38,693 nt of DNA from Lachnospiraceae bacterium (GTDB lineage Bacteria > Bacillota > Clostridia > Lachnospirales > Lachnospiraceae). Below the pieces are notes generated by a model. The model worked only from the letters and a program-made list of their open reading frames with translations, did not search any database and was not told the DNA's origin. The DNA is taken from positions 1-38,693 of the forward strand of contig BLMC01000021.1 of the NCBI GenBank assembly GCA_011959805.1, given 5' to 3'. Positions 470-17,575 of this stretch are shown here, in pieces. The position numbers were made by a program, and so were the translations under genes. Every line of letters begins with the position of its first letter. Positions within the stretch are counted from its first letter, which is position 1.

Positions 470-2137
470 ATGAAGGTAAAAAAAGTGGCGGTAGTATTGC
501 TTGCAGCAACAATGATGGCAACACAGGCAACTGGATGTAAGAATGCAGACCAGACAGTAACAAATGAAACATCTCAAGAATCAATACAAACAGAGAGGCA
601 GCAGTCTGTACAAGAAAATGAAAGAGAGGGTGTACAACAGACAATACAGGAAAATGATAATTATGACAAAACAGATAAGCAGCAATCATTACAGAAAGAT
701 GACACCATTGCTTCTAATGAGACGACACAGGAAGATAATAGTCTAAAAATAAATTATACAGCAAAACTTGTGGGGACATACGAAGCGGAGGAAGCGCAAC
801 TAAGTGGAAATGTGAAAGTAGTCAAGGAGACGAATGGTGACTATGTTTCCGGATTTGAACAAGATAGTGACAGTTGTAACTTTACAGTTGAGATTGCCTC
901 AGAGGGCTTTTACGACCTTAATTTTGTAAGTGCAACAGAGGGTGGATACAAAGAGAATTATGTGACTGTAGACGGTGATAGTATAGGAACAATTGCTGTG
1001 GAGAGTGCTGACTTTTCGGATGCAATGATTGCGCGTGTTTATCTTACGCAGGGTACACATAATATTGCAGTAACAAAGTATTGGGGATGGATTAAATTGG
1101 ACAAATTAGTGATACAGACCTCTGCGCCGATTGATGAGAATATCTATCAGGTTTCGGCGGAGCTGGTCAATAAAAACGCGACGGATGAGACAAAGCGTCT
1201 AATGCATTATCTTACAGATACATATGGAAAATATGTTTTGTCGGGACAGTATTGTGATCAGGGGCAATTTGGCAAGGAGATGACCGTTATCAATAAAGCT
1301 ACTGGGAAATTTCCAGCAGTTTTAGGACTCGATTTTATTGAGTATTCGCCTTCCCGCGCAGCAAATGGAAGTGTGGGTAAAGCGACAGATTATGCAATTA
1401 AGTTTTGGGAAAATGGTGGGATTGTAACGTTTTGTTGGCATTGGAATGCACCGCAAAAATATTTGACTGCTGAGTGGTATAAAGGTTTTAACACAGATGC
1501 GACAAATATCGACCTTGCAAAGATTATGAATGGTACAGATGAGGAAGGATATGACCTCTTGATGAAAGATATTGACACGATTGCACAACAATTGTTGATT
1601 TTGCAAGACGCAAAAGTGCCAGTCCTATGGAGGCCGCTCCACGAGGCATCTGGCGGCTGGTTCTGGTGGGGCGCAAGTGGACCAGAAGCATACAAAGAAC
1701 TTTACATATTATTATACGACAAACTGACAAATGAATATGGGTTAAATAACCTTATCTGGTTGTGGAATGGACAAAACAAAGAGTGGTATCCGGGTGATGA
1801 ATATGTGGATATTATCGGAGAAGATATTTATCCAGGAGAGAAAGTGTATGGTTCTCAGATTAATAAGTATCTGGAAGCTATCGATTACACACCAAATACC
1901 AAGATGATAGTCCTGTCAGAGAACGGCTGCGTGCCAGACCCAGATTTAATCAATCGCGATGGTGCAATGTGGGGATTTTTCTGTACATGGGGCGGAGAAT
2001 TTGTAGCGAAGGATTCTTCTATCTATGCGTTGAGTGAACAATATACAGAGAAGACAATGCTCAAGAAGGTGTATGACAGTGAACTTGTCATCACGCTTGA
2101 CGAACTTCCTGATTTAAAGAATTATCCACTTCCATAG
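470..2137 (+). CDS. Secreted GH26 beta-mannanase lipoprotein with a CBM35-like module
   Basis: Endo-acting glycoside hydrolase of family 26, expected to cut beta-1,4-mannan or glucomannan outside the cell. Residues 1-22 form a lipoprotein signal ending in the lipobox ATG-C with Cys23. A Gln/Glu/Thr-rich linker follows (about 24-95), then a beta-sandwich module resembling CBM35 or CBM6 (about 98-217), then the GH26 barrel (about 225-545). Family landmarks are HWN at 324-326, the acid/base Glu392 in RPLHEASGGWFWWG and the nucleophile Glu484 in LSENG. It opens the ABC-transporter locus and lies 29 bp upstream of the DUF624 gene. ATG at 470 follows GAGAGGGTGA. Fold and family are clear; mannan as substrate is the family norm, since some GH26 members cut other beta-glycans. 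Confidence 0.93.
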   Translation: MKVKKVAVVLLAATMMATQATGCKNADQTVTNETSQESIQTERQQSVQENEREGVQQTIQENDNYDKTDKQQSLQKDDTIASNETTQEDNSLKINYTAKLVGTYEAEEAQLSGNVKVVKETNGDYVSGFEQDSDSCNFTVEIASEGFYDLNFVSATEGGYKENYVTVDGDSIGTIAVESADFSDAMIARVYLTQGTHNIAVTKYWGWIKLDKLVIQTSAPIDENIYQVSAELVNKNATDETKRLMHYLTDTYGKYVLSGQYCDQGQFGKEMTVINKATGKFPAVLGLDFIEYSPSRAANGSVGKATDYAIKFWENGGIVTFCWHWNAPQKYLTAEWYKGFNTDATNIDLAKIMNGTDEEGYDLLMKDIDTIAQQLLILQDAKVPVLWRPLHEASGGWFWWGASGPEAYKELYILLYDKLTNEYGLNNLIWLWNGQNKEWYPGDEYVDIIGEDIYPGEKVYGSQINKYLEAIDYTPNTKMIVLSENGCVPDPDLINRDGAMWGFFCTWGGEFVAKDSSIYALSEQYTEKTMLKKVYDSELVITLDELPDLKNYPLP

Positions 2138-2166
2138 ATAAGAGTTTTTGAGAGAAGGAGGCGTGT

Positions 2167-2811
2167 ATGAAAGGAATTTTAACATTTGAAGGTCCTGTAA
2201 TACAGTTTTTTCACAAGACAGGGGAGCTGATTATTGCGACAATACTTTTTTGGCTATTCTGCATACCTGTCGTTACAATAGGAGCTTCCGCCACTTCATT
2301 CTACTATGCGGTGATTAAGAGTGTCCGTCGAGAACGCGGGTATGTTACATCAGAGTTTATGCGTTCCATAAAACGGACGTTGGGAAAAGGCAGCCTTCTA
2401 ACAGTTGGGGCGATTATATGGTTTTTTGTGCTTTGGATTGGTAGGCAGCAGTCAAGTCGGCATATGGCCTTGGTATACAATGTGCTGATGCTGGTAAGCA
2501 TTTGTATTTTAGTATATATTTTTCCAGTTCTATCCCGTTTTGAGTTGAAGCTCACAGGGATTATCAAACTGTCCTTTGTGATGAGCATACGCTATTTCTA
2601 CTATACTATACCTATTATAGCAGGAACGGTACTGCTTGCTTGGCTTCAGTTTTTTATTTTACCTATGCCCTGTATCCTTGTGCTTCCGGGGGTGTGGTGT
2701 TATGGAATCACTTTTGTGATGGAGAGAGCATTGTTGGGGTATATGCCAGCAAAAGAGGAAGCCAAAAAAAATAGTCAGAGCGTTGAGACCGACGCTTGGT
2801 ACTATGAATGA
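2167..2811 (+). CDS. DUF624 (YesL-like) integral membrane protein
   Basis: This 214-aa protein matches the DUF624/YesL family, small membrane proteins found next to carbohydrate ABC transporters of Firmicutes and of unknown biochemical role. It opens with the family-like stretch FEGPVIQFFHKTGELI. About five hydrophobic segments are visible, near residues 22-46, 76-94, 99-121, 138-162 and 166-190. A charged cytoplasmic tail follows. AAGGAGG lies 7 bp before ATG 2167. The gene sits between the mannanase and the first SBP gene, which supports a role in assembling or regulating the import system. That role is inferred from neighbourhood only. Confidence 0.8.
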   Translation: MKGILTFEGPVIQFFHKTGELIIATILFWLFCIPVVTIGASATSFYYAVIKSVRRERGYVTSEFMRSIKRTLGKGSLLTVGAIIWFFVLWIGRQQSSRHMALVYNVLMLVSICILVYIFPVLSRFELKLTGIIKLSFVMSIRYFYYTIPIIAGTVLLAWLQFFILPMPCILVLPGVWCYGITFVMERALLGYMPAKEEAKKNSQSVETDAWYYE

Positions 2812-2921
2812 GGCACAGAAAACAGATAGAAAAAGTTTTTTGTGCAGCAAATTTATGTATACGCTTTGTAAAGTTCGATTACATTGAATTTGCAAAGAGA
2901 TGCAGGAATGGAGGTTTTAAA

Positions 2922-5900
2922 ATGATGAGAGAGTCGAAATGGCGAAAGACATGTGCAAAAAAGTACATGGCAGCCCTTTTGTCAGTCACGGTGGGCGTGA
3001 CAGGAATCACAGGTTTGTCAATGTTGGTTCCACACACGTTCCTAGAGGCAAATGCTATGACAGACAAAACGATGGATGTGTACGACGATATTGTAAGTAC
3101 ATATTCTGTGGACTCTTCCGTACCGGACTACAGGTCGTATGTGGCTGGTTTTACCGCGGCTTATCCAAGTGAGAGTATCATTGTGGATGCGAAGGATTTC
3201 GTGCGGTATGAGGAGGAGAATGCGGCGGTAGAACCGCAACTGCTGTCTGACTATGAGGGCATGACAGGCCAGAGCTTACTGACAAGCGAGAAGGCGCTGG
3301 TCGAATTTGAAGTCGACGTCGCGCAAGAAGGGTTCTATAACCTGGCGATTGATTACTTTCCGGTCGAGGGAAAAAGTTCAGACATTCAGAGAAGTATTTT
3401 CGTAGATGGAATGCTTCCGTATGGAGAGATGGCACTGTTGACATTTCATCGAGTGTGGAAGTATGACATTGCACAGACAACAACAAAAAGCGGTGCGACA
3501 AGTTATGTGTGGGAGAAGGACAATCAGGGAAATGATTGCAAGCCGGGCATGCTAGAGGCACCGGAGTGGATGACTAGTTACTGTTATGACAGTGATGGAT
3601 ACATTACAACCCCGCTTGCCATTTATTTGACAAAGGGAACACACACAATCTCAATGCTGTCCTTAAAAGAACCGATGTTGATTCGCAGGCTTACCTTTGA
3701 GAATGCGTCTTCCACAAAAAGTTATGCAGAAGTAAAAGCGCAGCAGGATGAGAATGGTGTAAAAGCAACATCAGGACACAAGATTACAATTCAGGGTGAG
3801 AGCGCGTCAAAATCTTCTTCCCAGATGCTTTATCCGCAGCAAGATCAGTCCTCTCCAGCAGTATCACCATCAAGTCACAAGGAGCTTTTAAACAACACGA
3901 TTGGCGGAAATTCTTGGCGGCTTGTGGGACAGTGGATTGAGTGGGATTTTGATGTTCCAGAAACGGGGTATTACAATATTTCCCTCTATGACTGTCAAAA
4001 TTTTGTGCGCGGCATCTATGTATCCCGCCGGATTATGATTGATGGGCAGGTACCATTTGCGGAGCTTGAGGACTATGGATTCCGATATGGACAAAGCTGG
4101 CGTGAGGATGTGATTGGCGATGCACAAGGAAATCCTTATTCTTTTTACCTCGAGCAAGGACATCACACAATTCGCATGGAAGTAGTATTGGGAGATTTCT
4201 CTAGTATTATCAGTGAAGTTGAGGATTGTGTAAAGCAACTCAACAGCATCTATCGAAAAGTAATTAAAGTTACAGGGGTATCACCAGATACCTACCGTGA
4301 TTATCAGATTGAAGCGACATTACCAGAATTGCACAGTGAACTTGTATCTGTGCGCGACCAGTTAGACGCGGCAATCACAAATTTGCGGTCTCTGACAGGC
4401 AAAAAATCGGATAAAGAAACGACGCTTCTGACAATGCGGGACCAACTTGACGATTTAATCAAAGATGGAGAATATTTTGTCAAGGTTATCGGTACATATA
4501 AAATTAATGTCCGCGCATGCGGGAACTGGATTACAAGTGTGATTGACCAACCGCTGGCAGTAGATAGGATTAACATATATTCTGCAGATGTAGATTTGAA
4601 ATATGAAAATACATCGTTCTGGTCAAAGTTGGTTTATGAGATTAAACGGTTGTTTTTCTCGTTTATTATAGACTATAACCAGATTGGAAACGTGGCTGAG
4701 AAGGGCAGTAATGCACCGACAATTACACTCTGGATTGGTTCAGGGCGCGACCAGGCAAATGTTATTAAGGCAATGATTGACGAGACCTTTACAAGTAAGT
4801 ACGGTGTCAATGTCAATGTACAGCTCGTCGATATGTCGACGCTGCTGCGCGCAGAACTTGCAGGTGAAGGACCTGATGTGGCAATACAAGTTGCAAATAC
4901 AACGGGAATTGCAGGGCAGGTACTCAATACAGGAAATGATACGCCAGTCAATTATGGTATCCGAAATGCAGTGCTTGATTTGACACAATTTAGTGATTTG
5001 GATGAAGTTTCACAACGGTTTTCAAAGGCATCTATGATACCGTTTCAGTTTGACGGTGCGACTTATGCGCTGCCGGAAACAACAACATTTCCAGTAATGT
5101 TTTACAGGAGAGATATTTTGGCGGAGCTTGGTATGGAGGTTCCACAGACCTGGGATGATGTGAAGGTTGCCATGACAGTGCTTGCCAAAAATCAGATGGA
5201 GTTTGGTATGCTTCCGGGCGAACAGACCTTTGCCATGATGTTGTATCAAAATGGCGGGGAATATTACAGTGAAAACGGTGATCGTTCGGCGTTGGATTCT
5301 GATATCGCAGTCAATGTATTTAAAGATTATTGTGAGTTTTATACAGATTATAAGCTTGATAAGGAAACGAGCGTGGAGGAACGCTTCCGCACAGGAGAAT
5401 GTCCGATCATCATAGCAGACTACACAATTTACAATAATTTGGTGGTCTCAGCACCAGATATTGCAGGCCTGTGGGATTTTGTTCCTGTTCCGGGCACAGT
5501 GAAAGAGGATGGAACAGTTGACAGAAGCACTGGATGTACAGGGCTTGCCAGTATTATTATGGCAAATACTGCATATCCGCAAGAGTGTTGGGAGTTTTTA
5601 AAATGGTGGACTTCGGCGGAGGTACAGACGCAGTATGGGCGTGAGATGGAAAGTTTGATGGGTTCTGCGGCGCGCGTGCCAACTGCGAATCTCGAGGCAT
5701 TTGAGAATATGCCATGGCCGGTGGATGATTTTCGAGCGTTGGAGGAAGCGTTTGTGTGGGTAAAAGGAATTCCACAAGTTCCAGGCGGGTATTATTCATG
5801 GAGAAATGTCAACAATGCGTTCTACGCAGTGACAACAGAGACAGATACAGCGTCACCAAGAGAGGAATTGATGGATAAGGTTATCTATATTAATGCGGAG

Positions 5901-5948
5901 ATTGATTACAAGCGGCAGGAGTTACACTTACCTGTTGCGGCAAATTAG
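2922..5948 (+). CDS. Large extracellular solute-binding protein fused to two carbohydrate-binding-like domains
   Basis: Probable oligosaccharide receptor of ABC transporter 1, 1008 aa against about 400-550 for ordinary sugar SBPs. After an N-terminal hydrophobic export segment (about 13-40) come two beta-sandwich domains, roughly residues 80-260 and 286-426. Each has the FYNL/YYNI...DG...YL-GTHTI pattern of CBM35/CBM6-like modules. A helical, coiled-coil-prone linker covers 430-590, and a family-1 SBP domain runs from about 597 to the end. No lipobox Cys is seen, so anchoring must be by an uncleaved signal helix or partners. I chose ATG 2922 because GGAGG precedes it and it gives a proper signal peptide. 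The in-frame ATG at 2808 overlaps the previous stop and would add 38 non-signal residues. Domain calls come from pattern reading; the SBP assignment is firm. Confidence 0.85.
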   Translation: MMRESKWRKTCAKKYMAALLSVTVGVTGITGLSMLVPHTFLEANAMTDKTMDVYDDIVSTYSVDSSVPDYRSYVAGFTAAYPSESIIVDAKDFVRYEEENAAVEPQLLSDYEGMTGQSLLTSEKALVEFEVDVAQEGFYNLAIDYFPVEGKSSDIQRSIFVDGMLPYGEMALLTFHRVWKYDIAQTTTKSGATSYVWEKDNQGNDCKPGMLEAPEWMTSYCYDSDGYITTPLAIYLTKGTHTISMLSLKEPMLIRRLTFENASSTKSYAEVKAQQDENGVKATSGHKITIQGESASKSSSQMLYPQQDQSSPAVSPSSHKELLNNTIGGNSWRLVGQWIEWDFDVPETGYYNISLYDCQNFVRGIYVSRRIMIDGQVPFAELEDYGFRYGQSWREDVIGDAQGNPYSFYLEQGHHTIRMEVVLGDFSSIISEVEDCVKQLNSIYRKVIKVTGVSPDTYRDYQIEATLPELHSELVSVRDQLDAAITNLRSLTGKKSDKETTLLTMRDQLDDLIKDGEYFVKVIGTYKINVRACGNWITSVIDQPLAVDRINIYSADVDLKYENTSFWSKLVYEIKRLFFSFIIDYNQIGNVAEKGSNAPTITLWIGSGRDQANVIKAMIDETFTSKYGVNVNVQLVDMSTLLRAELAGEGPDVAIQVANTTGIAGQVLNTGNDTPVNYGIRNAVLDLTQFSDLDEVSQRFSKASMIPFQFDGATYALPETTTFPVMFYRRDILAELGMEVPQTWDDVKVAMTVLAKNQMEFGMLPGEQTFAMMLYQNGGEYYSENGDRSALDSDIAVNVFKDYCEFYTDYKLDKETSVEERFRTGECPIIIADYTIYNNLVVSAPDIAGLWDFVPVPGTVKEDGTVDRSTGCTGLASIIMANTAYPQECWEFLKWWTSAEVQTQYGREMESLMGSAARVPTANLEAFENMPWPVDDFRALEEAFVWVKGIPQVPGGYYSWRNVNNAFYAVTTETDTASPREELMDKVIYINAEIDYKRQELHLPVAAN

Positions 5949-5966: not shown

Positions 5967-6905
5967 ATGGATACAGAAATTTCGAGAGAGGCGTATGAAA
6001 TTGCCGCAAAACAAAAAAAATTGAGTTACCAGATTAAACGCAATAAGGCCTCCTACCTAATGCTTGCGCCGTACTTTATCCTGTTTTTCCTATTTACAGT
6101 TTTGCCGGTGGTAATTTCTATAGGATTGAGTTTTACATACTTTAATATGCTTGAAGCGCCGACTTTTGTAGGATGGAAAAACTATGTCAAGCTGTTTCTC
6201 GAGGACGATATCTTTCTGATTTCTTTAAAAAATACGTTGATTTTTGCGGTGATTACGGGTCCAGTCAGCTATATTTTATGTTTGCTTTTTGCATGGATTA
6301 TCAACGAGTTTAAGGGCAAAGTCAGGGCATTTTTGACACTGATTTTCTACGCGCCAAGTATCTGCGGCAACGCTTATATGGTATGGAATTTGATTTTGAC
6401 TGGAGATAGATATGGATACTTGAATGGTATTTTATTAAAACTTGGCATTATGGACGAAGCGATTCTTTGGATGAAGACAGAGAAGTATGTGCTTCCGGTG
6501 TTGATTGTCGTGCAATTGTGGTTATCTCTTGGCACTGGGTTTTTATCGTTTATTGCGGGTCTTCAGACAGTCGATAAAAGTCTGTATGAGGCGGCAGCGC
6601 TCGACGGTATTAAGAATCGCTGGCAGGAGTTATGGTATGTGACACTTCCATCTATGAAGCCACAGTTAATGTTTGGCGCAGTAATGCAAATTACGCAGTC
6701 CTTTGCAGTGGCGGATATCTCCATACAGCTTGCCGGGAATCCGTCAGTCAACTATGCTGGTGCAACAGTAGTGACACATTTGCTTGACTATGGTTCTACG
6801 CGATTTGAAATGGGATATGCGTCCGCGATTGCAACAGTGCTGTTTCTACTTATGATTGGTACCAATAAGCTGGTGCAGAGAATCTTAAGAAGGGTTGGTG
6901 AATGA
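5967..6905 (+). CDS. Sugar ABC transporter permease, MalF type (transporter 1)
   Basis: Inner-membrane component of a family-1 carbohydrate importer, 312 aa with six predicted membrane segments. The first lies at about residues 28-52. The cytoplasmic EAA loop that docks the ATPase is clear: EAAALDGI...LPSMKP near residues 207-232. An N-terminal cytoplasmic stretch of about 25 charged residues is usual for MalF/UgpA/YesP relatives. AAAGGAGG precedes ATG 5967. The gene is 18 bp downstream of the fused SBP gene, and its stop lies 1 bp before the best start of the MalG-type partner, so the three form one transport unit. The substrate is inferred from the mannanase context. Confidence 0.92.
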   Translation: MDTEISREAYEIAAKQKKLSYQIKRNKASYLMLAPYFILFFLFTVLPVVISIGLSFTYFNMLEAPTFVGWKNYVKLFLEDDIFLISLKNTLIFAVITGPVSYILCLLFAWIINEFKGKVRAFLTLIFYAPSICGNAYMVWNLILTGDRYGYLNGILLKLGIMDEAILWMKTEKYVLPVLIVVQLWLSLGTGFLSFIAGLQTVDKSLYEAAALDGIKNRWQELWYVTLPSMKPQLMFGAVMQITQSFAVADISIQLAGNPSVNYAGATVVTHLLDYGSTRFEMGYASAIATVLFLLMIGTNKLVQRILRRVGE

Positions 6906-6906
6906 G

Positions 6907-7800
6907 ATGGCTGATACAAGTAAAAAGTTCAAGAATCCCTTCCAAAAACGACCGAAAGAGAAACGACTAAATCGTTCTGTTGCAGGAAATGGAATTTTGT
7001 TCTTCCTTATGGCAATTTGTGGGGTATTTATGGCGCTACCACTTGTCATGATTATCAACAATGCGTTAAAACCGCTGGATGAGATTTTTCAGTTCCCGCC
7101 CAAGATATTTGTGCGAAATCCGACTTTGGAAAATTTTTCAGACTTGTTTGTGCTGATGAATAATTCGTGGGTACCATTTTCCAGATATATTTTAAACACC
7201 GTTATCATTACGGGCCTTGGTATGGTGGGACACGTTATCTGTGCTTCGCTTGCAGCATATCCACTGGCAAAGCATCATTTTCCAGGAAAAGGGATTTTGT
7301 TTAGTATGGTTGTGCTGTCTATGATGTTCTCTTGGACAGTAACACAGATTCCACAGTATATTATTATCAGTTGGCTAGGAATCAACAATACTTATGCAGC
7401 GCTGATATTGCCAGCATTTTCGTTTGGAATGGGACTTTATTTAATGAAGCAGTTTATGGAGCAATTGCCGGATTCTTTAATGGAGTCAGCCCGACTTGAC
7501 GGGGCAAGTGAGTGGAAGATTTTCTGGTCAATTGTCATGCCAAATGTAAAACCAGCGTGGTTGACACTGGCAATTTTCCAGTTTCAACAGATGTGGGGAA
7601 ACACAGGTGGATTATTCTTAAGAAACGAGGAGTTAAAACCATTACAGTATGCGCTGCAGCAGATTACAGCAGGTGGTACAGCGAGAGCTGGCGCTGCGGC
7701 AGCGGTGACTTTTATTGTTGCAGCAGTACCAATTATTTTCTTCTTAATCTGCCAGAGCAACGTATTGGAAACAATGACAACCTCAGGTATGAAAGATTGA
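6907..7800 (+). CDS. Sugar ABC transporter permease, MalG type (transporter 1)
   Basis: Second membrane subunit of transporter 1, 297 aa with six predicted membrane segments. It carries the EAA loop ESARLDGAS...MPNVKP near residues 192-218. The N-terminus is cytoplasmic and highly basic. I start at ATG 6907, which has GGTGA (6897-6901) at 5 bp. TTG 6895 and GTG 6898 are also in frame and would add only three or four residues. The gene is translationally close-coupled to the MalF-type partner. As in most such Firmicute loci no ATPase gene is adjacent, so an MsmX-like shared ATPase is the expected motor; that is family knowledge, not visible here. Confidence 0.92.
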   Translation: MADTSKKFKNPFQKRPKEKRLNRSVAGNGILFFLMAICGVFMALPLVMIINNALKPLDEIFQFPPKIFVRNPTLENFSDLFVLMNNSWVPFSRYILNTVIITGLGMVGHVICASLAAYPLAKHHFPGKGILFSMVVLSMMFSWTVTQIPQYIIISWLGINNTYAALILPAFSFGMGLYLMKQFMEQLPDSLMESARLDGASEWKIFWSIVMPNVKPAWLTLAIFQFQQMWGNTGGLFLRNEELKPLQYALQQITAGGTARAGAAAAVTFIVAAVPIIFFLICQSNVLETMTTSGMKD

Positions 7801-7822: not shown

Positions 7823-9295
7823 ATGAATATAATGAAAAGACTTGCTGCATTTTTCATGGCAGCAACGGTTATAACAATCAGTGTTGGTACACATGTGTAT
7901 GCGGAGGAACTTCCATATGACACATATACATACACTTATTGGGAGGACATTGCAATTACACCTGCGGCGTATGTGCCAAATGGCAGTGTCATTGGGCTTT
8001 CTGTGGGAACAACGAGTTTTGCGGAACCGCAGGATTTGTGTGTGGCGCCAGATGGGCTTGTCTATGTGGCAGACACAAAAAATAATCGGATTGTCGTGCT
8101 TAGCGCAGATATGAAAGCACTTGTGCGCGTGATTGACAGTTTTGAGCACGATGGAAGTTCGGACACATTTAATGCGCCTTACGGCGTATGCGTGTCAGAA
8201 AAAAATCAACTTTATGTGGCAGATTCCAACAATAAACGCATCGTTGTAATGACGTCGGAGGGGGAATTTATTAAGATTATTGATAATCCACAGTCGGAGA
8301 TTCTCGAGGAAGGTTTTGACTTTGTGCCGTTGAAGGTGACAGTCGACTATGCGGACCGTGTGTATGTCATTGCAAAAAATGCATTTGAGGGCATTTTGGT
8401 ATTTGAGAGTACAGGCGATTTCACAGGATATTTTGGCACAATTGATGTTAAGATTACAGCGTGGGAAAAATTTTGGAGAAGGCTTGCCAGCAAGGAGGAA
8501 CGCTCTAAACAGTTATTGTTTATTCCGACAGAGTTTACAGGAATCGACGTTGACAGTGATGGTTTTGTGTATGCGTCGAACATTGATTCAGATGGTATTC
8601 AGGGTGTGCGACGTTTGAATCCTAGAGGTGAGGATGTTATTCAGAAGGGCGAGAATGAGAATCTTGGCGGCGACTTGGTTGTGGGAATGTTTGGAACTTA
8701 TGCAGGACCTTCTGAATTTACAGATGTAGTGTACCGTGGAAAGGGCATCTATTCTCTGCTTGACAGAAAGCGTGGACGAATTTTTACATATGACAAAGAA
8801 GGAAATTTGTTGTATATCTTTGGCGGTCTTGGTAGTCAGGAAGGAACATTCAATACGCCAGTTGCAATCGAGGCGGTTGGAGACACGATTATTGTGCTCG
8901 ATGCGTACAGCGGTGCGATTCTTAAGTTTAGTGAGACGCAGTATGGTTCTTTGATTAATGATGCAGTGGGACTGCGCTATGATGGTGACGAGACGGAAGC
9001 GATTGAAAAGTGGCAAGGAGTTCTAAAACTAAATGAGAACAATGAACTTGCAAACAGCGGTATTGGTAAGGCGTATCTGACGGCTGGGGATAATAAGACA
9101 GCAATGAAGTATTTAAAGCTTGCTATGAATAGAAAATATTATTCTATCGCGTGGAGGCGCTATAGAAATGAGCTGATGGCAAAGAGCATTGGACCTGCAT
9201 TGACAATTGTCGGCATTGTTATTGTCCTTACATTTGTGTACAAGAAATTTTTTAGGAAGGGTTTTGTCAAGAAGGAAGGAGGGCTTGCTAGATGA
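7823..9295 (+). CDS. Exported NHL-repeat beta-propeller / TPR protein with C-terminal membrane anchor
   Basis: This 490-aa envelope protein has a signal peptide (residues 1-27, cleavage after VYA). Next comes an NHL-type beta-propeller with blades such as VADTKNNRIVVL and VADSNNKRIVVM between about 50 and 375. A short TPR-like helical pair (about 385-440) is followed by one membrane segment at 458-477 and a basic tail. The topology implies an extracellular propeller tethered to the membrane, probably a protein- or glycan-binding scaffold rather than an enzyme. GGAGGG lies 7 bp before ATG 7823. Its last codons overlap the Yip1-family start (ATGA), so the two are translationally coupled. Function is unknown; lactonase-type catalysis is conceivable for propellers but I see no evidence for it. 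Confidence 0.8.
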   Translation: MNIMKRLAAFFMAATVITISVGTHVYAEELPYDTYTYTYWEDIAITPAAYVPNGSVIGLSVGTTSFAEPQDLCVAPDGLVYVADTKNNRIVVLSADMKALVRVIDSFEHDGSSDTFNAPYGVCVSEKNQLYVADSNNKRIVVMTSEGEFIKIIDNPQSEILEEGFDFVPLKVTVDYADRVYVIAKNAFEGILVFESTGDFTGYFGTIDVKITAWEKFWRRLASKEERSKQLLFIPTEFTGIDVDSDGFVYASNIDSDGIQGVRRLNPRGEDVIQKGENENLGGDLVVGMFGTYAGPSEFTDVVYRGKGIYSLLDRKRGRIFTYDKEGNLLYIFGGLGSQEGTFNTPVAIEAVGDTIIVLDAYSGAILKFSETQYGSLINDAVGLRYDGDETEAIEKWQGVLKLNENNELANSGIGKAYLTAGDNKTAMKYLKLAMNRKYYSIAWRRYRNELMAKSIGPALTIVGIVIVLTFVYKKFFRKGFVKKEGGLAR

Positions 9296-9924: not shown

Positions 9925-9938
9925 GGGGAAAGGATATT

Positions 9939-12518
9939 ATGGCTAAAAGTAAGAAAATTGTGATCGCTATCGTAACCCTCATTTTGGCAATCGTGGTCAT
10001 TTATTTCTCGCGCTGGCTGATACGCTATTACTTGTACAATGATTACCAAGAAAGTCTTTCCTCCTATGAGTATGAGGAAGGAAGCGTGTTTCAGGCTTTA
10101 AGTGACAGCAAAAAGGAAGTTGCAGGCATGGAGCTTGCAGCGGAGAATGACATATTAAAGCTCTACGCAGATAGGAAGAATGCGACAGTGGCGATTGTGG
10201 ACAAGAGAAATGGACAGATTACCTACTCGAATCCTCTCGATGCAGATGCGGATGCAATTGCGAGCACTACCAATAAAAATTATTTGAAATCGCAGTTGAT
10301 TTTGGACTTTTTCAATACATCACGGACAGAGGGAACCTATGACTCTTTTAGCTACTGCACCGAAAGAGGACAGCTTGAAGTAGAGTCGATTCGAGATGGA
10401 ATTCGTTTTATCTATACACTGGGCGACTTGGAGAGCGCTACAGGGATTGTACCTCAATACATTAGTAAGGCGACGCTCGACAGAGTGCTTGCAGCGCTGG
10501 ATGAAGATGGTGCAAAGTTTGTCCAAATGAAATATATCGAAAGCGAGATTGGTGAGGACTATATGGAACTGTTGTCCGCAGCGATGAAAGGTGCCTCACA
10601 AATTCGGAAACTGAACAAATATTTTGAGCAGGCAGGGTTTACAAGCGAGGATTATGTGACGGAGATGGAAAATTCCGGCGTGGAGGATGCGGTGCCTATC
10701 TCATTTGTGATACCACTTGAATATCGACTTAACAATGATGCAGTAGAAGTATCGATTCCTATGTGCGCAGTGCAGGAGAACGGCGGCGGAAGTATTTTTA
10801 GAATCCAGTTGTTGCGGTATTTAGGTGCGGCAGGGACAGATGAGAACGGATACATGATGGTGCCAAACGGTTCTGGTTCGCTCATTAATTTTAACAATGG
10901 TAAGACAACATCAGAGAACTATTCAGAGTATGTTTATGGAATTGATAAGCTTGCTGCGGAGTATACAGTACGGGAAAACACGGAGGATGTCAAACTTCCA
11001 GTGTATGGATTGTTCCGCGATGAGAGTAGTATTTTTGCGACAATTGAGGACGGTGCAGCATTTGCAAATATCAGTGCAGGTGTGTCTGGCAAAATACATA
11101 ATTATAATTATGTATATTCTTCATTTGTGCTACGTGGAAATGATAAGCTTTCTATGTTTGGTACAACAGGAAACGAGGCAGATATTCCTGTTGTGGAAAA
11201 AAATTTTTATGATGCAAATTTAACTGTAAAATATACAATGTTGACACAGGACTATGCAGGTTATGCGGGAGCTGCAAACTATTATAGAGAACGCCTTGTG
11301 AATGAGGGTGTGCTTAAAGCCAAGGATAAAACCGTGGATGACATTAAGTTTTATTATGATGTACTTGGCGGCGTTATGATGAACAAGTTTTTCCTTGGAA
11401 CACGCTATGAAGGAATGTATGCGATGACTACTTTTGACCAGGCGGCGGACATTTCATCGGACCTTGCAGAGGCCGGTATCACCAATCAAGTAATGAATTT
11501 TCAGGGTTGGATGAATCGTGGATATTATCATGATGTTGTGGATAAAATTCAGATTCCAGTAGCGCTCGGTGGAAAAAGTGACTTAAAAAAATTGAACGAG
11601 ACAGTAGCAAACAATGGCGGGACATTATATGCGGATGTGGCATTTCAAAAAGTGACTGAAATCAGTAAGCGTTATTCTGAGGGAAATGAGACTTCGCGAT
11701 ACTATGGTGGCGGATACATTGCGAATTTTGGACTGGTAAATCCGGCAACGCTGCGTCAAACTTCAGGACTTGGATGGGAGGAAAACATTTATTATCTGAT
11801 ATCTCCCAAATTTCTTGTGCGCTATATAGACCAGTTTACATCAAAAATTGGGAAGTATGATGTGGATGGTATTTCGTTAAGAGACCTTGGAAATGTACTC
11901 CATTCTGATAAGAAGCGAACGAATATTATTAACCGTGAGGAGGCGCTCGATGTTGTGAGTGCATCACTTGCGCAGATTGCGGCAGTCGGAAAAAGGATAA
12001 TGGTCAATGATGGAAATAATTATGCGTTTGCGTATGCAGATGATATTATCAATGCGCCACTATCGGATAATGATTACTATATTGTTGATGAGACAGTGCC
12101 ATTTTATGAGATGTTAATTCACGGATATATTGATTATTGTGGTGCGGTCATCAATCTAAGTGATACCTATAATGACAGGGATATTGTTTTAGAATTGATT
12201 GAGGCGGGCGCATCCCCACATTTTATGTTCACACATCAATCTTCAAGTGCGATTAAGGACACAGGATTAAATCGGTTTTACTCCACAAATTATGACAACT
12301 GGAAGAAGGATGCGGTGGGTATTTACAATGAAGTTAACGATGTACTAAAACATGTAAGTGGCGCGCATATTACAAATCACACAATTTTAGAAAATGACAC
12401 ACGTGTCATAACTTATGACAACGGTGTAGCAATCTATATCAACAAAAGTGCTTCTGACCAGACGATTGATGGTGTAGAAGTACCTGCAAAAAGCTATCGG
12501 TTAGGAGGAGATAAATAA
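9939..12518 (+). CDS. Membrane-anchored DUF5696-type protein, possible glycoside hydrolase-like barrel
   Basis: An 859-aa protein with a single N-terminal membrane helix (about residues 7-29) and a large exported part. From memory of similar loci in Paenibacillus and Lachnospiraceae it matches DUF5696 proteins, which sit beside ABC permeases, NHL and Yip1 genes; no database check was possible. The N-terminal half is beta-rich. The C-terminal half, from about 460, alternates strands and helices like a TIM barrel, with VDGISLRDLGN (Asp643, Asp649) and VDETVPFYEML as candidate acidic active-site segments. A short beta domain ends the protein. GGGGGAAAGG precedes ATG 9939. Its stop overlaps the next permease start by one base (TAATG). 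The family name is moderately sure; the glycosidase idea is inference. Confidence 0.65.
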   Translation: MAKSKKIVIAIVTLILAIVVIYFSRWLIRYYLYNDYQESLSSYEYEEGSVFQALSDSKKEVAGMELAAENDILKLYADRKNATVAIVDKRNGQITYSNPLDADADAIASTTNKNYLKSQLILDFFNTSRTEGTYDSFSYCTERGQLEVESIRDGIRFIYTLGDLESATGIVPQYISKATLDRVLAALDEDGAKFVQMKYIESEIGEDYMELLSAAMKGASQIRKLNKYFEQAGFTSEDYVTEMENSGVEDAVPISFVIPLEYRLNNDAVEVSIPMCAVQENGGGSIFRIQLLRYLGAAGTDENGYMMVPNGSGSLINFNNGKTTSENYSEYVYGIDKLAAEYTVRENTEDVKLPVYGLFRDESSIFATIEDGAAFANISAGVSGKIHNYNYVYSSFVLRGNDKLSMFGTTGNEADIPVVEKNFYDANLTVKYTMLTQDYAGYAGAANYYRERLVNEGVLKAKDKTVDDIKFYYDVLGGVMMNKFFLGTRYEGMYAMTTFDQAADISSDLAEAGITNQVMNFQGWMNRGYYHDVVDKIQIPVALGGKSDLKKLNETVANNGGTLYADVAFQKVTEISKRYSEGNETSRYYGGGYIANFGLVNPATLRQTSGLGWEENIYYLISPKFLVRYIDQFTSKIGKYDVDGISLRDLGNVLHSDKKRTNIINREEALDVVSASLAQIAAVGKRIMVNDGNNYAFAYADDIINAPLSDNDYYIVDETVPFYEMLIHGYIDYCGAVINLSDTYNDRDIVLELIEAGASPHFMFTHQSSSAIKDTGLNRFYSTNYDNWKKDAVGIYNEVNDVLKHVSGAHITNHTILENDTRVITYDNGVAIYINKSASDQTIDGVEVPAKSYRLGGDK

Positions 12519-13435
12519 TGAATAGCAAAAAGAAAAAAATGTCTCTTTCTGAGAAGAGAAGCCGTACAGGATTTCTGTTTGTTCTTCCGTGGCTGGTTGG
12601 TTTTATCTGGTTCTATGCAAGAAGTCTGTTTATGTCGGTACAGTTTTCGCTCTCGAACTTGACTGTTAGTCCGGGTGGGGGATACTCGTTGGATTTTGTT
12701 GGACTGGACAATTTCCTTTATGCGTTTCGAGCACATGCGACATATAAGCAAGTGCTTACGACCTCTGTCGGCAATATGTTGATTGATGTGCCGCTTATTA
12801 CATTTTTTAGTCTGTTTATGGCCATCTTATTAAATCGCAAATTCAAGGGAAGAACACTTGTTCGGGCCATATTTTTCTTACCGGTGATTCTCAACTCGGA
12901 AGCCATTGTGGATGCGATGGATTTAGCGCGAAATATGATGAGCGGCGGACTCTCCAACGCAAGTGCAGAGATGGCGCAGGCGTCGTCGGGCGGTATGGGC
13001 ATTGCGTACTATATGCAGATGTTTGGTTCACTCGGTATACCAGAGTCCCTGATTGAGTACCTTATGGGGGCGGTGGCGCGTGTCAGCGATATTATTAATG
13101 CTTCTGGTGTGCAGATTATTATTTTTATTGCAGCGTTGCAGTCCGTTCCCGGTTCTATGTATGAAGTTGCCAAGATTGAGGGTGCAACAACATACGAGAC
13201 CTTTTGGAAGGTAACATTTCCGATGGTGATGCCACACATTATCACAAACATTGTGTATACCGTTGTGGACAGCTTTACGCAGTCTGATGTAGTGGGGCTT
13301 GCTTACAAGACGGCGTTTACTGAGAGTAACTATGGACTTAGCTCTGTATTTAGCCTGTGTTCGACAGCGATTACTTGTCTGATATTGGTAATTGTGTGTG
13401 GATTTATACAGAAGCGAACATTCTATTACAATTGA
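12518..13435 (+). CDS. Sugar ABC transporter permease, MalF type (transporter 2)
   Basis: Membrane subunit of the second carbohydrate importer, 305 aa with six predicted membrane segments. A basic N-terminus precedes the first helix (about 21-42). The EAA loop reads EVAKIEGAT...FPMVMP near residues 213-238. A long extracellular loop around residues 130-165 is Ser/Gly/Met-rich. AGGAGG lies 8 bp before ATG 12518, which overlaps the DUF5696 stop. It is only distantly similar to the transporter-1 permease, so the two pairs are not a recent duplication. Pairing with the next gene is clear from adjacency. Confidence 0.92.
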   Translation: MNSKKKKMSLSEKRSRTGFLFVLPWLVGFIWFYARSLFMSVQFSLSNLTVSPGGGYSLDFVGLDNFLYAFRAHATYKQVLTTSVGNMLIDVPLITFFSLFMAILLNRKFKGRTLVRAIFFLPVILNSEAIVDAMDLARNMMSGGLSNASAEMAQASSGGMGIAYYMQMFGSLGIPESLIEYLMGAVARVSDIINASGVQIIIFIAALQSVPGSMYEVAKIEGATTYETFWKVTFPMVMPHIITNIVYTVVDSFTQSDVVGLAYKTAFTESNYGLSSVFSLCSTAITCLILVIVCGFIQKRTFYYN

Positions 13436-13454
13436 GAAAGGGGGACAAAAACAT

Positions 13455-14438
13455 ATGGCAAATATAAAAGGCATTATTGAGGATGCAAAGAACGACAAAC
13501 AGTTTGCGAATGATAGAATGCGCTGGGCATCCAACTGCAAAGGATTTATCTTATTTCTGTTCCGCCTAGTTATTATCGTCGGGATATGCTATGTGATATT
13601 AGGCCCCGTAATCGGCATTATTAGCAGTTCATTTTTTTCTGATGCAGACAGCTACAATCCTATGGTATACATGATACCACAGGAGCCGACACTGTATCGG
13701 TATGAACTGGCCTCTAAGTATCTCGACTACGCAAAGTCGATGGCCAGTTCTCTTGTCTACGCGGCAACACTTATGATAATACAAGTATTTATTTGTTCGA
13801 TGGTAGGTTACGGCTTTGCGCGGTATCAATTTCCAGGCAAAAATATTCTGTTTGCGTGCGTGGTTATTATGATTGTGATTCCTACCAACACCATTATGCT
13901 TCCACTTTACATGACATTTGCAAAGTTTGATGTGTTTGGCATAATCAATCTAATTAAAGGGTCGTCGGTGAATCTATTGTCGACACCTGTGCCAATGTAC
14001 ATTATGACAATTTTTGGATGCGGACTGCGTTCAGGCTTGTATATCTATATATTTAATCAGTTTTTCCGTGGGCTTCCTAAAGAAATTGAGGAAGCGGCGT
14101 TTGTGGATGGTGCAGGAACGCTGTACACGTATTTTCGTATTATGCTTGTCAATGCGCTGCCATCGGCAGTTACAGTCGCGATTTTTTCAATGGTGTGGCA
14201 GTACAATGACACTTTCTATGCAAAGTTGTTCTTAATTAGCGACAGTATTGTTATCAGCAAGAAGATATCAACAATTACAGCGACCATCTCTACACTGGAG
14301 AAAATTCTTGACCCAGCGATATTACAATTGTTTTTGGACGCAGGAATTGTACTTGTTATGATACCAATTGTCATTATTTATGTGCTTTTGCAAAAACAAT
14401 TTATTGAGGGTGTTGAGCGCAGTGGTATTGTAGGATAA
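13455..14438 (+). CDS. Sugar ABC transporter permease, MalG type (transporter 2)
   Basis: Second membrane subunit of transporter 2, 327 aa. A cytoplasmic N-terminal stretch of about 30 residues is followed by six membrane segments. The EAA loop reads EEAAFVDGAG...LVNALP near residues 213-238, and the C-terminus FIEGVERSGIVG is typical of MalG/YcjP-type permeases. ATG 13455 is preceded by GAAAGGGGGA. The frame is open further upstream, but that extension overlaps the previous gene and lacks a ribosome site. It is followed by the hairpin-bearing gap that separates the permeases from the two binding lipoproteins. Confidence 0.92.
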   Translation: MANIKGIIEDAKNDKQFANDRMRWASNCKGFILFLFRLVIIVGICYVILGPVIGIISSSFFSDADSYNPMVYMIPQEPTLYRYELASKYLDYAKSMASSLVYAATLMIIQVFICSMVGYGFARYQFPGKNILFACVVIMIVIPTNTIMLPLYMTFAKFDVFGIINLIKGSSVNLLSTPVPMYIMTIFGCGLRSGLYIYIFNQFFRGLPKEIEEAAFVDGAGTLYTYFRIMLVNALPSAVTVAIFSMVWQYNDTFYAKLFLISDSIVISKKISTITATISTLEKILDPAILQLFLDAGIVLVMIPIVIIYVLLQKQFIEGVERSGIVG

Positions 14439-14454
14439 CAAATTACCAAAAGCA

Positions 14455-14480
14455 ATAAAATGACACTTGTGTCATTTTAT
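14455..14480. terminator. Perfect 12-bp inverted repeat, weak terminator or operator
   Basis: ATAAAATGACAC and GTGTCATTTTAT form a perfect 12-bp stem around TT, 17 bp after the permease stop. The A-tract, short GC core and T-tract layout fits a leaky bidirectional terminator. The core TGACAC-N2-GTGTCA also recurs inside two coding regions (12395-12408 and 19752-19765), which would fit a regulator site. The sequence alone does not decide between them. Confidence 0.5.
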
Positions 14481-14503
14481 ATAAAAGGAAAAATGAACCA
14501 AAA

Positions 14504-14554
14504 GTGTACGCATAAACTTTTTGTACTTGCGTGCAAGGAAGTTTGTACGTACAC
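14504..14554 (+). promoter_or_regulatory. Long hairpin in the leader of the binding-lipoprotein genes
   Basis: Bases 14504-14519 pair with 14539-14554 through a 16-position stem (GTGTACG/CGTACAC outside, AAACTT/AAGTTT inside) with one C-A mismatch and one G-U pair. CTTG/CAAG nests at the tip. It ends 9 bases before the AGGAGG of the next gene. Such intercistronic hairpins often protect downstream SBP mRNA from decay, or control access to the ribosome site. The structure is seen in the sequence; the role is inferred. Confidence 0.55.
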
Positions 14555-14578
14555 ACGAACAAAAGGAGGATGAGAGAG

Positions 14579-16099
14579 TTGAAAGCAAGGAAATTAATCA
14601 CGTTATCTTTGACAGCAGCTATGGCGATGAGTGTGGCTGCGTGCGGTGGCAAGGGCACAGACAATACGGCAAATACCAACGCAGATGTACAAACGACACA
14701 AGCAGTAGTGCCTGAAACCACTCTGGAAGAAACAACTACACAAGAGCAGACAGAACCAGCAGCGGATGCGCAGCAGGAAGCACCTGTAGGCGAAGTAAGC
14801 ATTAACTTTGAGGATGGTGTATATGGATTTGTAGGTGTGGATAAAAGTGTAAATCCTGTAGGAGATGATTCGACACTTTCGATAGCAGATTTTTCGGGCT
14901 CCAAGGCGTTGAAAGTCGAGACAAACGGAAAAGCGCCCTATATAGGAATTCAGGTGGATGCACTCTTGGGTGAGAAGGCGGCTGAGGTGAAGACTGTAGA
15001 GATGTCGCTTGGGATAGAAAATCCAGATGGCAAGTTTAACGCAGTGTCTGGAAAAATTTACGCATTTCTTGGAGCAGAAAATGAGCGTAAGGATGGGGAC
15101 TGGTCAGTATATTTGGAGACCGCCAATCCCAAGACAGCAGTCTATGAAGTTCCTGATGGAATGACTTTTGGACAAGGCAACTATATGGTGGTGTCCCTGG
15201 AGACGGACAATGGCAAAGATGTTGGTGCTACACCCGCGATTCTATATATAGATAACATTGCATTTAAGGATGCAGCAGGAAATATTATCGCGGCAGATAC
15301 CACAGCTGAGTTTGTGTCGACAGCGACAGAAGATGACCGTTCCAACCTTGTAAATATCACAGGTGCAGTAGAATTTGAAGGCTTTGCAACAAAGGCAGAT
15401 GGCTGGGCACAGAGTGGATTTGCCATGACGGAAGATATTATAGCGGCGCTTGTTCCAGGTTCTGTTGTTGAGATTTCTTTTACAAGTGAAACTGGTGATA
15501 TGTGGATTGTTATGAATGAGGCTGAGGCGGGCTGGATGCGTGTTGGCGATGGTACAAATGGAAGTTCCGCAGTCAACGACGCTAAGACAATAGCGCAAAT
15601 TCCGTTTGAGATGTTGGCAGAATATTGTGGTGATGATGTTTCTAAGTGGGGTACGACAATGCAATGTGAAGCGTCTGGCGCATGGGAAGTATACAGCGTG
15701 AAGGTCGGTCAGGCAGCGAAAAGTTATAACCTCACAGATGTGGTGGAGTTTGATGGTTTCACTGCAAAAGGTGATGGCTGGGCACAGGATGGCAAGGATA
15801 TGACAGAGGATATTATAGCGGCGCTTGTTCCGGGTTCTGTCGTTGAGGTGACATACACAAGTGAGAGTGGTGATATGTGGCTTGTCATTCCAGATGCTGA
15901 GGCAGGCTGGATGCGCGTTGGCGATGGCACAAACGACCAGGCAGTCACAGATGGAAGCAAGGCATATATTCCGTTTGAAATGATAGCAAAGTATTGTGGT
16001 GAAGATGTGTCTAAATGGGGTACAAGAATGCAGTGTGAGGCGTCTGGTGCATGGGAAGTGTTCAGTGTGAAGGTTGGAATGGATTCAGAAGGAGAATAG
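14579..16099 (+). CDS. Lipoprotein with duplicated glycan-binding-like modules
   Basis: A 506-aa surface lipoprotein without an evident enzyme domain. The signal MKARKLITLSLTAAMAMSVAAC gives lipid-modified Cys22, then a Thr/Gln/Glu linker to about residue 75. A beta-sandwich-like domain starting INFEDGVYGF (about 77-240) resembles carbohydrate-binding modules of mannanases. Two tandem modules of about 120 aa end the protein, sharing DGWAQ, TEDIIAALVPGSVVE, GDMW and AGWMRVGDGTN with long identical stretches. I prefer the TTG start at 14579, since AGGAGG (14564-14569) lies 9 bp before it. ATG 14570 touches that ribosome site directly, and 14531 lies in the hairpin. The position between permeases and SBP suggests it captures glycan for transporter 2. 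The CBM family is not identified. Confidence 0.75.
   Translation: MKARKLITLSLTAAMAMSVAACGGKGTDNTANTNADVQTTQAVVPETTLEETTTQEQTEPAADAQQEAPVGEVSINFEDGVYGFVGVDKSVNPVGDDSTLSIADFSGSKALKVETNGKAPYIGIQVDALLGEKAAEVKTVEMSLGIENPDGKFNAVSGKIYAFLGAENERKDGDWSVYLETANPKTAVYEVPDGMTFGQGNYMVVSLETDNGKDVGATPAILYIDNIAFKDAAGNIIAADTTAEFVSTATEDDRSNLVNITGAVEFEGFATKADGWAQSGFAMTEDIIAALVPGSVVEISFTSETGDMWIVMNEAEAGWMRVGDGTNGSSAVNDAKTIAQIPFEMLAEYCGDDVSKWGTTMQCEASGAWEVYSVKVGQAAKSYNLTDVVEFDGFTAKGDGWAQDGKDMTEDIIAALVPGSVVEVTYTSESGDMWLVIPDAEAGWMRVGDGTNDQAVTDGSKAYIPFEMIAKYCGEDVSKWGTRMQCEASGAWEVFSVKVGMDSEGE
15361..16083 (+). repeat. In-gene tandem duplication of a ~360-bp module
   Basis: About 15361-15714 and 15736-16083 are two copies of one coding module. 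The copies lie 375 bp apart at their 5' part and 369 bp apart at their 3' part, so a 6-bp indel separates them. Stretches such as GATATTATAGCGGCGCTTGT are identical at the DNA level, which points to a fairly recent duplication. Confidence 0.85.
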
Positions 16100-16111
16100 G
16101 AGGTTTGATGT

Positions 16112-17575
16112 ATGATGAAAAAAAGTATTAAAAGATTAATAGCGCTTGGCTTGAGTATGACAATGATGGCAGGACTTACAGCTTGTGGAGGTGGATCAGG
16201 CGATAGTGCACAGACTCAGGCGCCTGCAGCAGACACAAACAATACAACACAGTCACCTGCAGCAGATGATAACAATGATACAGCAAAGACAGATGCAGAC
16301 AAGGATACGCCTACAGTTTCCTCGGGAGGACACAGGGTAATTAAAGTTGGGTGTTGGTATCCACACTACTATGACAGCACACATACCAGCATTGACGACA
16401 ATCCAACGATGAGCGACCCAGATGAGGCCCAGATGCAGTTTGACAGTCTCAAGGCAGTCGAAGAAAAATATGATGTGGAGATTGAGTTTGTGAATTTAAC
16501 CTTTAATGGCGTAAAAGAATCCATCAATACATCCATTTTGGCTGGACAGCCCGACTGTGATATTTATGAGGTTGATTTACAGTTTGGTATTCCTGCAGCG
16601 CTCAATGGATTTGCAACCAACTTAAAGGAAGTGCTTCCTGCAGATGCGGATGTTGTAAGTGATCAGATGATTTTTTCAAAAGTGGATATTGGCACAGATG
16701 ATGGTACCTATCTATTTCGTTCTGTGACAGGGGATGCTATTCTTCAAGATACAAATATGCTTGCATTCAACAAGCAAATGCTCGACGAAGCTGGTCTGGA
16801 AGATCCCAATACACTGTATGAAAAAGGAGAGTGGACGTGGGATAAATGGAGAGAATATATGCTTGCGCTAACTCAGGATACAGACGGCGATGGTGTGACA
16901 GATGTATATGGATATGGTGCTGTTTGGACAACGCTTTTTAGCAATCTCTTAATGAGCAATGGCACAGGTGTTGCAATGGGACCGACAGAATCTTTCTCAA
17001 GTCCTGAGGTTGCAGAGGTGCTTGACTTTATCTATAACATGTACAATGTAGACCATGTTGCATATCCGTGGAATGCGGACGACTGGGATGCAAACCAGAA
17101 CGCTTATCTGGACGGTAAAGTTGCATTTTTTATCGATGCAGCATGGATTTCCGATGCAAACAAAGATTCTGAGTTGAGTTTTGATGTGACATGGTGTCCA
17201 TGGCCAGTTGGTCCTAGTGGCAATCAGGATACAAACGCTCTTAAGAGCGCCTCAAAAGGAAGTGCGTGGATGATACCGGCAGGTGTGGATAATCCTGAAT
17301 TTGTTTATACAGTATTTGAGGATTGGGCAAACTGGTATGATGGTGATACTGATGTTCGTGACAGCAATCTTACTTGGTGGGAAGATGCAGCCATTACAGA
17401 AGAAAACTATGCAGTGATGGAATATATGGGTTCAAGAAGTTGTGTTGATGTCTGGGAAGCATTGGGACTTGAGTGGGATTTCCCAAAACTTCTGACAGGT
17501 GAGATGACAGCTGCGCAGTTCCAAGAGACCTATAAACAGAGCGTACAAGATGCGCTGGATGGATTCTACAATTAG
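16112..17575 (+). CDS. Extracellular sugar-binding lipoprotein (SBP family 1, transporter 2)
   Basis: Conventional family-1 solute-binding protein, 487 aa, the receptor for transporter 2. The lipoprotein signal ends GLTAC with Cys25. A low-complexity Gln/Ala/Asp/Thr linker runs to about residue 65, then two alternating alpha/beta lobes. Typical SBP segments include IKVGCWYP at the first strand, GEWTWDKWREYMLALT in the middle, and a Trp/Tyr-rich C-terminal lobe expected to stack on sugar rings. AGGAGG lies 8 bp before ATG 16112. It follows the duplicated-module lipoprotein by 12 bp, so the two are co-translated. The ligand is unknown; manno- or gluco-oligosaccharides fit the context. Confidence 0.92.
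   Translation: MMKKSIKRLIALGLSMTMMAGLTACGGGSGDSAQTQAPAADTNNTTQSPAADDNNDTAKTDADKDTPTVSSGGHRVIKVGCWYPHYYDSTHTSIDDNPTMSDPDEAQMQFDSLKAVEEKYDVEIEFVNLTFNGVKESINTSILAGQPDCDIYEVDLQFGIPAALNGFATNLKEVLPADADVVSDQMIFSKVDIGTDDGTYLFRSVTGDAILQDTNMLAFNKQMLDEAGLEDPNTLYEKGEWTWDKWREYMLALTQDTDGDGVTDVYGYGAVWTTLFSNLLMSNGTGVAMGPTESFSSPEVAEVLDFIYNMYNVDHVAYPWNADDWDANQNAYLDGKVAFFIDAAWISDANKDSELSFDVTWCPWPVGPSGNQDTNALKSASKGSAWMIPAGVDNPEFVYTVFEDWANWYDGDTDVRDSNLTWWEDAAITEENYAVMEYMGSRSCVDVWEALGLEWDFPKLLTGEMTAAQFQETYKQSVQDALDGFYN

Follow-up and report, generated by a model that had tools for sequence, protein, structure and literature searches.

A 38.7-kb stretch of DNA from a Lachnospiraceae bacterium (contig C21 of genome G000, which is 86.5% complete; hereafter the window) carries three adjacent genes for envelope proteins of the NHL, Yip1 and DUF5696 families among the genes of two sugar importers. 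This module is a real and widespread variant of the glycan import loci of Gram-positive bacteria, and it is undescribed as far as the literature was searched. NHL, Yip1 and DUF5696 are probably dedicated accessory components of CUT1-type ATP-binding cassette (ABC) glycan importers in Bacillota, a reading drawn from the gene order, the co-occurrence of the genes, NHL-Yip1 fusions, predicted folds, export and anchoring signals and linkage to glycan-active enzymes, all of which were computed here. The uptake of large glycan fragments by Gram-positive fibre degraders, which lack an outer membrane, has mostly been described as the work of a plain three-part ABC importer. In the window the genes lie on one strand in the order GH26-CBM35 (glycoside hydrolase family 26 with carbohydrate-binding module 35), DUF624, solute-binding protein 1 (SBP1), permeases 1a and 1b, NHL/TPR, Yip1, DUF5696, permeases 2a and 2b, CBM65 lipoprotein, SBP2, LacI and GH5. 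The two importer sets, the three envelope families between them and their order had been named in an earlier note made from the letters of the window, and Pfam matches bear these out; the arrangement recurs in 40 loci from across the phylum and in 80 further loci.

Co-occurrence of the module across Bacillota

Co-occurrence was followed in 299 Bacillota genomes drawn evenly across the phylum. A match was counted as strong if DUF5696 scored over the Pfam cut-off, NHL above 100 bits or Yip1 at E<1e-15, the NHL and Yip1 thresholds having been chosen afterwards at visible gaps in the scores. DUF5696 exceeds its curated cut-off in 26 of the 299 genomes, and the Yip1 profile picks out the same 26, as does the NHL profile with the addition of a fragment in G243 that lies at the end of its contig, which makes 27. 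The 26 genomes span 11 families of the sample. Scores drop from 70 to 32 for Yip1, from 482 to 24.5 for DUF5696, and for NHL from a protein with 121 bits to another piece of it with 98 bits and then to 63. The counts leave out NHL matches of 40-63 bits, which are other NHL proteins (54 genomes in all at E≤1e-10), four genomes with Yip1 matches of 27-32 bits and seven genomes with DUF5696 below the cut-off. The N-terminal half of SBP1 is found in 28 genomes, namely the 26 and two whose contigs end just past permease 1a; in G103 the match is a 75-bit piece at the start of a contig on which the remainder of SBP1 is seen, and five genomes with short matches of 42-64 bits were left out.

The converse search gave the same picture. 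Yip1 matches at E<1e-15 occur at 74 places, 31 of them without a listed DUF5696 match, although at most four DUF5696 candidates were scored in most such genomes. Nineteen of these 31 were fetched, and DUF5696 adjoins NHL-Yip1 in 18; the remaining stretch was unreadable and was set aside, so that its Yip1 copy does not count as an exception lacking DUF5696. SBP1 and permeases 1 lie upstream in 12 of the 19. Five genomes of about 2.2-3.0 Mb (G040, G062, G082, G135 and G165) have 8-10 Yip1 matches each, with at most ten candidates scored per genome, and hold both single- and two-importer forms of the locus. The possibility that the three genes would be found mostly apart, allowed for in the earlier note, is contradicted by the genome search, the gene order and the converse test alike: the proteins behave as a unit that travels with permeases, as that note had proposed. 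That the module was never found separated in readable sequence points to a missing layer of the glycan-import machinery.

Conserved gene order

Gene order was scored with profiles on stop-to-stop segments in a phylum-wide set of 40 of the 46 places over the DUF5696 cut-off (the window being one of the 46), which covers all 26 genomes. NHL-Yip1 lies directly 5' of DUF5696 in 40 of 40 loci, as one fused protein in 28 and as separate proteins in 12. Permeases 2a and 2b lie directly 3' of DUF5696 in 38, and the other two loci lie at contig ends. SBP1 with permeases 1a and 1b is directly upstream of the module in 18 loci, and SBP1 occurs somewhere in the stretch in 21. The natural gene fusions suggest that at least NHL and Yip1 act together.

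A scan of named genomes yielded at least 595 pattern matches, of which 583 were confirmed and the best 80 kept, so that this set leans to close relatives; the nearest matches over DUF5696 among these best 80 of 583 are Lachnospiraceae metagenome-assembled genomes with 85-90% identity. Lachnoclostridium phytofermentans (L121), Anaeromicropila populeti (L131) and Thermoanaerobacterium butyriciformans (L135) are also included. NHL-Yip1-DUF5696 is present in 73 and permeases 2 in 76 of the 80 loci, every exception lying at a contig end, while SBP1-permease 1 upstream and SBP2 are each found in 60 of the 80; many of the contigs are short. The CBM65 lipoprotein accompanies 57 of the 80 named-scan loci versus none of the 40 phylum-wide loci. 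In one relative (L163:8310-10187) the permease 2a segment runs to about 625 codons from stop to stop, about twice the usual length, which may reflect a fusion or merely an open frame. The genome of the window holds a second copy of the module (L047; G000:C15, 28100-48000) with a fused NHL-Yip1, a shorter DUF5696 and its own SBP1 and permeases adjoining.

Matches occur in only 2 of 72,556 plasmid records. The RefSeq annotation of a Butyrivibrio fibrisolvens plasmid gives GH43, SBP, two permeases, NHL repeat protein, YIP1, DUF5696, two permeases and two SBPs, and that of a Paenibacillus cellulosilyticus plasmid (L183) gives a UgpC ATPase, SBP, two permeases, "YIP1" (the NHL-Yip1 fusion), DUF5696 and two permeases. 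The neighbours of the P. cellulosilyticus operon are LLM-class flavin-dependent oxidoreductases, an aldo/keto reductase and the UgpC ATPase.

The five core proteins show correlated pairwise distances over 50 loci (Spearman 0.78-0.88), which fits the module reading but would also be produced by linkage alone. The distances of SBP1 and permeases 1 track the core less closely (0.48-0.86). For SBP2, intended as a contrast, the correlation is not lower (0.67-0.83), and its 11 loci are too few to support a conclusion.

Fold and possible activity of DUF5696

The predicted ectodomain of DUF5696 (residues 66-859) matches GH129 and GH101 enzymes in fold over its whole length, with GH36 and GH13 scoring lower, and a profile comparison with GH129 chains gives 2.4e-11. 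DUF5696 was not assigned to GH129, since at E≤0.1 the Pfam GH129 model (PF11308) matches none of the 17 DUF5696 proteins compared with it. GH129 homologues sought as an alignment bridge gave no match in 12 or in 299 genomes, but the controls were equally silent.

The fold raises the possibility that DUF5696 is an active membrane-bound exo-glycosidase of a new family which trims side groups such as galactose before import, with NHL-Yip1 serving merely as an anchor. Besides the fold and profile matches, the conservation of D649, D657 and D717 in 50 of 50 DUF5696 proteins of the closer clade speaks for such an activity. The catalytic Asp of GH129 at strand 4 is D435 in NagBb and D486 in ZgGH129 (PMC5698469, PMC8106489). 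Its counterpart in DUF5696 was placed by strand and spacing only, because the printed hidden Markov model alignments end before strand 4, that of a barrel-only profile included. Across the phylum the three residues are less constant: among 41 proteins D649 is Asp in 19, D657 in 34 and D717 in 35. D657 is lost in seven proteins and D717 in six with one shared loss (Fisher p=1.0), and a catalytic pair of D657 and D717 lost jointly was rejected since the losses fall in different proteins. Position 690 is mixed and position 693 is Asn in 37 of the 41, and there is no conserved acid at strand 5 in these 41 proteins, as far as that position can be placed by spacing. The GH26 proteins of the same loci provide a contrast, as Glu 392 and Glu 484, which we take to be the catalytic pair, are kept in 50 of 50. 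An exo-glycosidase activity of DUF5696 is thus rather doubtful.

The NHL, Yip1 and SBP1 proteins

From hydropathy and family matches the NHL protein is predicted to consist of an N-terminal signal or transmembrane segment, a propeller, a TPR-like stretch, a C-terminal transmembrane segment (455-473) and a basic tail, and the protein matches NHL and designed-TPR chains in the PDB. In the fusions the basic NHL tail runs into the Yip1 helices, and the topologies predicted for NHL and Yip1 therefore agree.

NHL-Yip1 could alternatively be a surface sensor whose propeller binds a glycan or envelope polymer and relays the binding through the membrane, either to the permeases or to the control of gene expression. 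A propeller and TPR outside with a membrane domain inside, as hydropathy suggests, would suit this role, as would the LacI-type regulators of some loci and the histidine kinase/response regulator pair that neighbours the module in B. fibrisolvens. However, no kinase, sigma or anti-sigma domain exceeds its cut-off, an RsgI_N match in NHL being below it, and LacI is missing from some loci whereas permeases are present wherever the contig allows. A sensor is therefore an unlikely explanation.

The N-terminal part of SBP1 is predicted to form two beta-sandwich domains followed by a helical part ahead of the SBP itself, in a model of moderate quality (pLDDT 77, pTM 0.55) whose 50 listed PDB matches are SBPs or SBP fusions. 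At E≤0.5 GH115_C matches 13 of 28 SBP1 members (best 1.1e-6) and CBM35 matches two of 28 (best 0.06); these matches are compatible with glycan binding by the N-terminal part but do not prove it.

Proposed working of the module and evidence against it

As accessory components of importers, the three proteins may work as follows. Secreted or lipid-anchored enzymes (GH26, GH5) would cut polysaccharide at the cell surface, where CBM35, CBM65 and the N-terminal domains of SBP1 would hold it. A helix of its own and Yip1 would anchor the NHL propeller/TPR stalk in the membrane, and NHL/Yip1 together with the membrane-anchored, glycosidase-like ectodomain of DUF5696 would sit on permease pair 2 as an outer platform. 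This platform would hold, orient or present oligosaccharides to SBP2 and permease 2 and, if present, to SBP1 and permease 1, and ATP would be hydrolysed by a shared MsmX/UgpC-type ATPase. We infer a physical platform, beyond linkage of the genes, from the fusion, gene order and co-occurrence, and a complex, a transport role, the pairing with the ATPase and a division of labour between the permease pairs would go with it. A bolder and more tentative version, which is itself somewhat improbable, unites SBP1, NHL-Yip1 and DUF5696 with as many as two permease pairs in one large envelope complex, a functional Gram-positive counterpart of the SusCD outer-membrane glycan importers in which the propeller and a non-cutting receptor with a glycosidase fold dock long or branched glycan fragments and feed them to a pair of ABC pores driven by a common ATPase.

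Several observations weigh against a dedicated role in glycan import. A conserved operon is no proof of a complex. In 22 of the 40 phylum-wide loci SBP1-permease 1a-1b does not immediately precede the module; eight of these have less than 5 kb upstream, two have the importer after permease 2b and one has a split permease 1b. The other 11, with 5 kb or more of sequence upstream and SBP1 missing from the whole stretch, look like true single-importer forms, so that two importers, as envisaged in the earlier note, are not obligatory; all 11 belong to the five genomes with 8-10 Yip1 matches, which carry SBP1 elsewhere. No UgpC-type ATPase was detected in window 1-20500 or in 140 other loci (phmmer, E≤1e-20), whereas the positive control was detected; the transporter sets had been called complete, which they are not within these bounds. 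Elsewhere in the same genome, a different contig encodes one ATPase of UgpC/MsmX type that passes the family cut-off, and in P. cellulosilyticus a UgpC ATPase gene lies directly 5' of the operon. That operon adjoins flavin-dependent oxidoreductases, with zero annotated glycosidases in 25.8 kb; therefore the compound imported there may be a non-glycan or a modified sugar. DUF624 and Yip1 as a single family were rejected, there being no detectable relation between them (hhalign probability 0.3%).

The single-importer copies and the looser tracking of SBP1 and permeases 1 would be expected if an operon happened to bring together an envelope module and two importers unconnected with it and with each other, but this is very improbable given that NHL-Yip1-DUF5696-permease 2 stay together wherever the contig allows in both directions of selection and that the SBP1 N-terminal part occurs in all 26 genomes.

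If the three proteins serve importers, DUF5696 and a Yip1 subfamily acquire roles that can be tested, and the module is a marker by which genomes from gut, rumen and soil can be searched for glycan importers.

Substrate and neighbouring enzymes

The GH26, GH5, LacI and importer genes of the window would suit a Gram-positive polysaccharide utilization locus for beta-mannan, and a mannan link was part of the original proposal. The link holds in the Lachnospiraceae-centred clade but not across the phylum, GH26 being near the module in 48 of 80 named-scan loci versus four of 40 phylum-wide loci. Eight of 10 hand-picked open reading frames (ORFs) beside seven clade loci are of mannan type: one GH130 (in L121), two 2-epimerases (in L121 and L087), two GH27 or GH36 alpha-galactosidases and three GDSL esterases; the remaining two ORFs (L131, L135) have no relation to this set. 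Fragments of (acetylated galacto)glucomannan are the likely substrate in this clade, as judged from gene content. Phylum-wide, 76 neighbouring ORFs were hand-picked from 151, and among the 25 of 92 families listed there are six GH43, three GH42 and three CBM4_9, and two each of GH10, GH31, GH29, GH5, apiosidase and alginate lyase; non-glycan genes also occur. With GH43, GH42 and other glycoside hydrolases as neighbours, the module is not mannan-specific.

Organization of the locus in the window

Coordinates are listed in Table 1. Genes of the module had been described as joined by start-stop overlaps, which is correct for NHL/Yip1 (4 bases, 9292-9295) and DUF5696/permease 2a (1 base, 12518); Yip1 and DUF5696 are separated by a 14-base gap (9925-9938). 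The lipoprotein noted earlier between the permeases and SBP2 is indeed one and can now be specified as a CBM65 carbohydrate-binding protein. Likely starts of SBP1 (2922), permease 2b (about 13455) and the lipoprotein (about 14570) were chosen by eye from ribosome-binding sites and signal sequences. All four permeases exceed the Pfam cut-off and have EAA-like loops by eye, and with SBP1 and SBP2 they provide the permeases and binding proteins expected of CUT1-type importers. The DUF624 protein scores 61 bits against NCBIfam MusI_fam, below the cut-off of 160; relatives such as L074, L081, L093 and L120 have a second DUF624 gene 3' of SBP2, again adjoined by importer genes.

Table 1. Genes of the import locus and their positions in the window
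Feature	Position	Strand	Evidence
GH26 beta-mannanase with CBM35, lipobox-type signal (...ATGC)	470..2137	+	Pfam Glyco_hydro_26 1.9e-75, CBM_35 8e-16
DUF624 membrane protein, distantly MusI-like	2167..2811	+	DUF624 1.6e-09; 4 hydrophobic segments
SBP1: N-terminal part of ~550 aa, then family-1 solute-binding protein	2922..5948	+	SBP_bac_1 3.7e-20
Permease 1a (MalF-like)	5967..6905	+	BPD_transp_1 5.1e-11
Permease 1b (MalG-like)	6895..7800	+	BPD_transp_1 7e-17
NHL beta-propeller and TPR-like protein	7823..9295	+	NHL 1.8e-18; TPR_11 4.7e-4, below cut-off
Yip1-family protein, 5 hydrophobic segments	9292..9924	+	Yip1 5.2e-13
DUF5696: N-terminal transmembrane anchor and predicted GH129/GH101-like ectodomain	9939..12518	+	PF18952 648 bits, cut-off 25.6
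Permease 2a (MalF-like)	12518..13435	+	BPD_transp_1 1.3e-10
Permease 2b (MalG-like)	13455..14438 (ORF opens 13392)	+	BPD_transp_1 1.1e-10; start by ribosome-binding site
CBM65 lipoprotein, two CBM65 stretches	14570..16099 (ORF opens 14531)	+	CBM65_1 5.3e-42
SBP2, lipoprotein solute-binding protein	16112..17575	+	SBP_bac_1 5.1e-17; lipobox read by eye
LacI-family regulator	17632..18672	+	Pfam
GH5 enzyme with N-terminal signal	18832..20133	+	Cellulase GH5 5.9e-71

Further downstream, window 24340-26820 encodes a GH3 enzyme with permuted domains (Glyco_hydro_3_C 59-337, Fn3-like 370-444, Glyco_hydro_3 583-821), and a single ORF at 28562-30772 combines amino-acid permease and universal stress protein (Usp) domains.

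Comparison with known systems

DUF5696 is unmentioned in the open-access literature searched, subscription papers and preprints lying outside that search, and the module was not found among the matches listed for open-access literature on Yip1, NHL, mannan and ABC transporters. This agrees with the earlier suggestion that the joint role of the three families is undescribed. The mannan loci MULL and MULS of Roseburia intestinalis, according to the available part of the report on them, have one three-gene importer and import manno-oligosaccharides (PMC6385246). As described there, they share with the present locus a GH26 mannanase, LacI, an SBP with two MPP permeases, GH130, epimerase, GH36 and esterases (PMC6385246). 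The locus described here differs from what that part presents in its two permease pairs, its SBP of about 1000 aa and the three-protein module; the words NHL, Yip1 and DUF are absent from the main text of PMC6385246.

GH129 (NagBb; ZgGH129/DagB) and GH101 glycosidases (PMC5698469, PMC8106489) share the fold predicted for the whole DUF5696 ectodomain. Unlike them, DUF5696 has a membrane anchor, does not match the Pfam GH129 model and does not conserve the candidate active-site acids family-wide. MusI, a DUF624 protein, is an accessory protein of the maltose importer of Corynebacterium. Like MusI, Yip1 is a small membrane protein with several spans whose gene accompanies a CUT1 importer, but similarity between Yip1 and DUF624 is undetectable. 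The heavy subunits of amino-acid transporters, 4F2hc and rBAT, are type II membrane proteins with a non-catalytic ectodomain of glycosidase fold. They are eukaryotic, of GH13 type and partners of secondary transporters, and they offer a working analogy for DUF5696 rather than a family to which it belongs.

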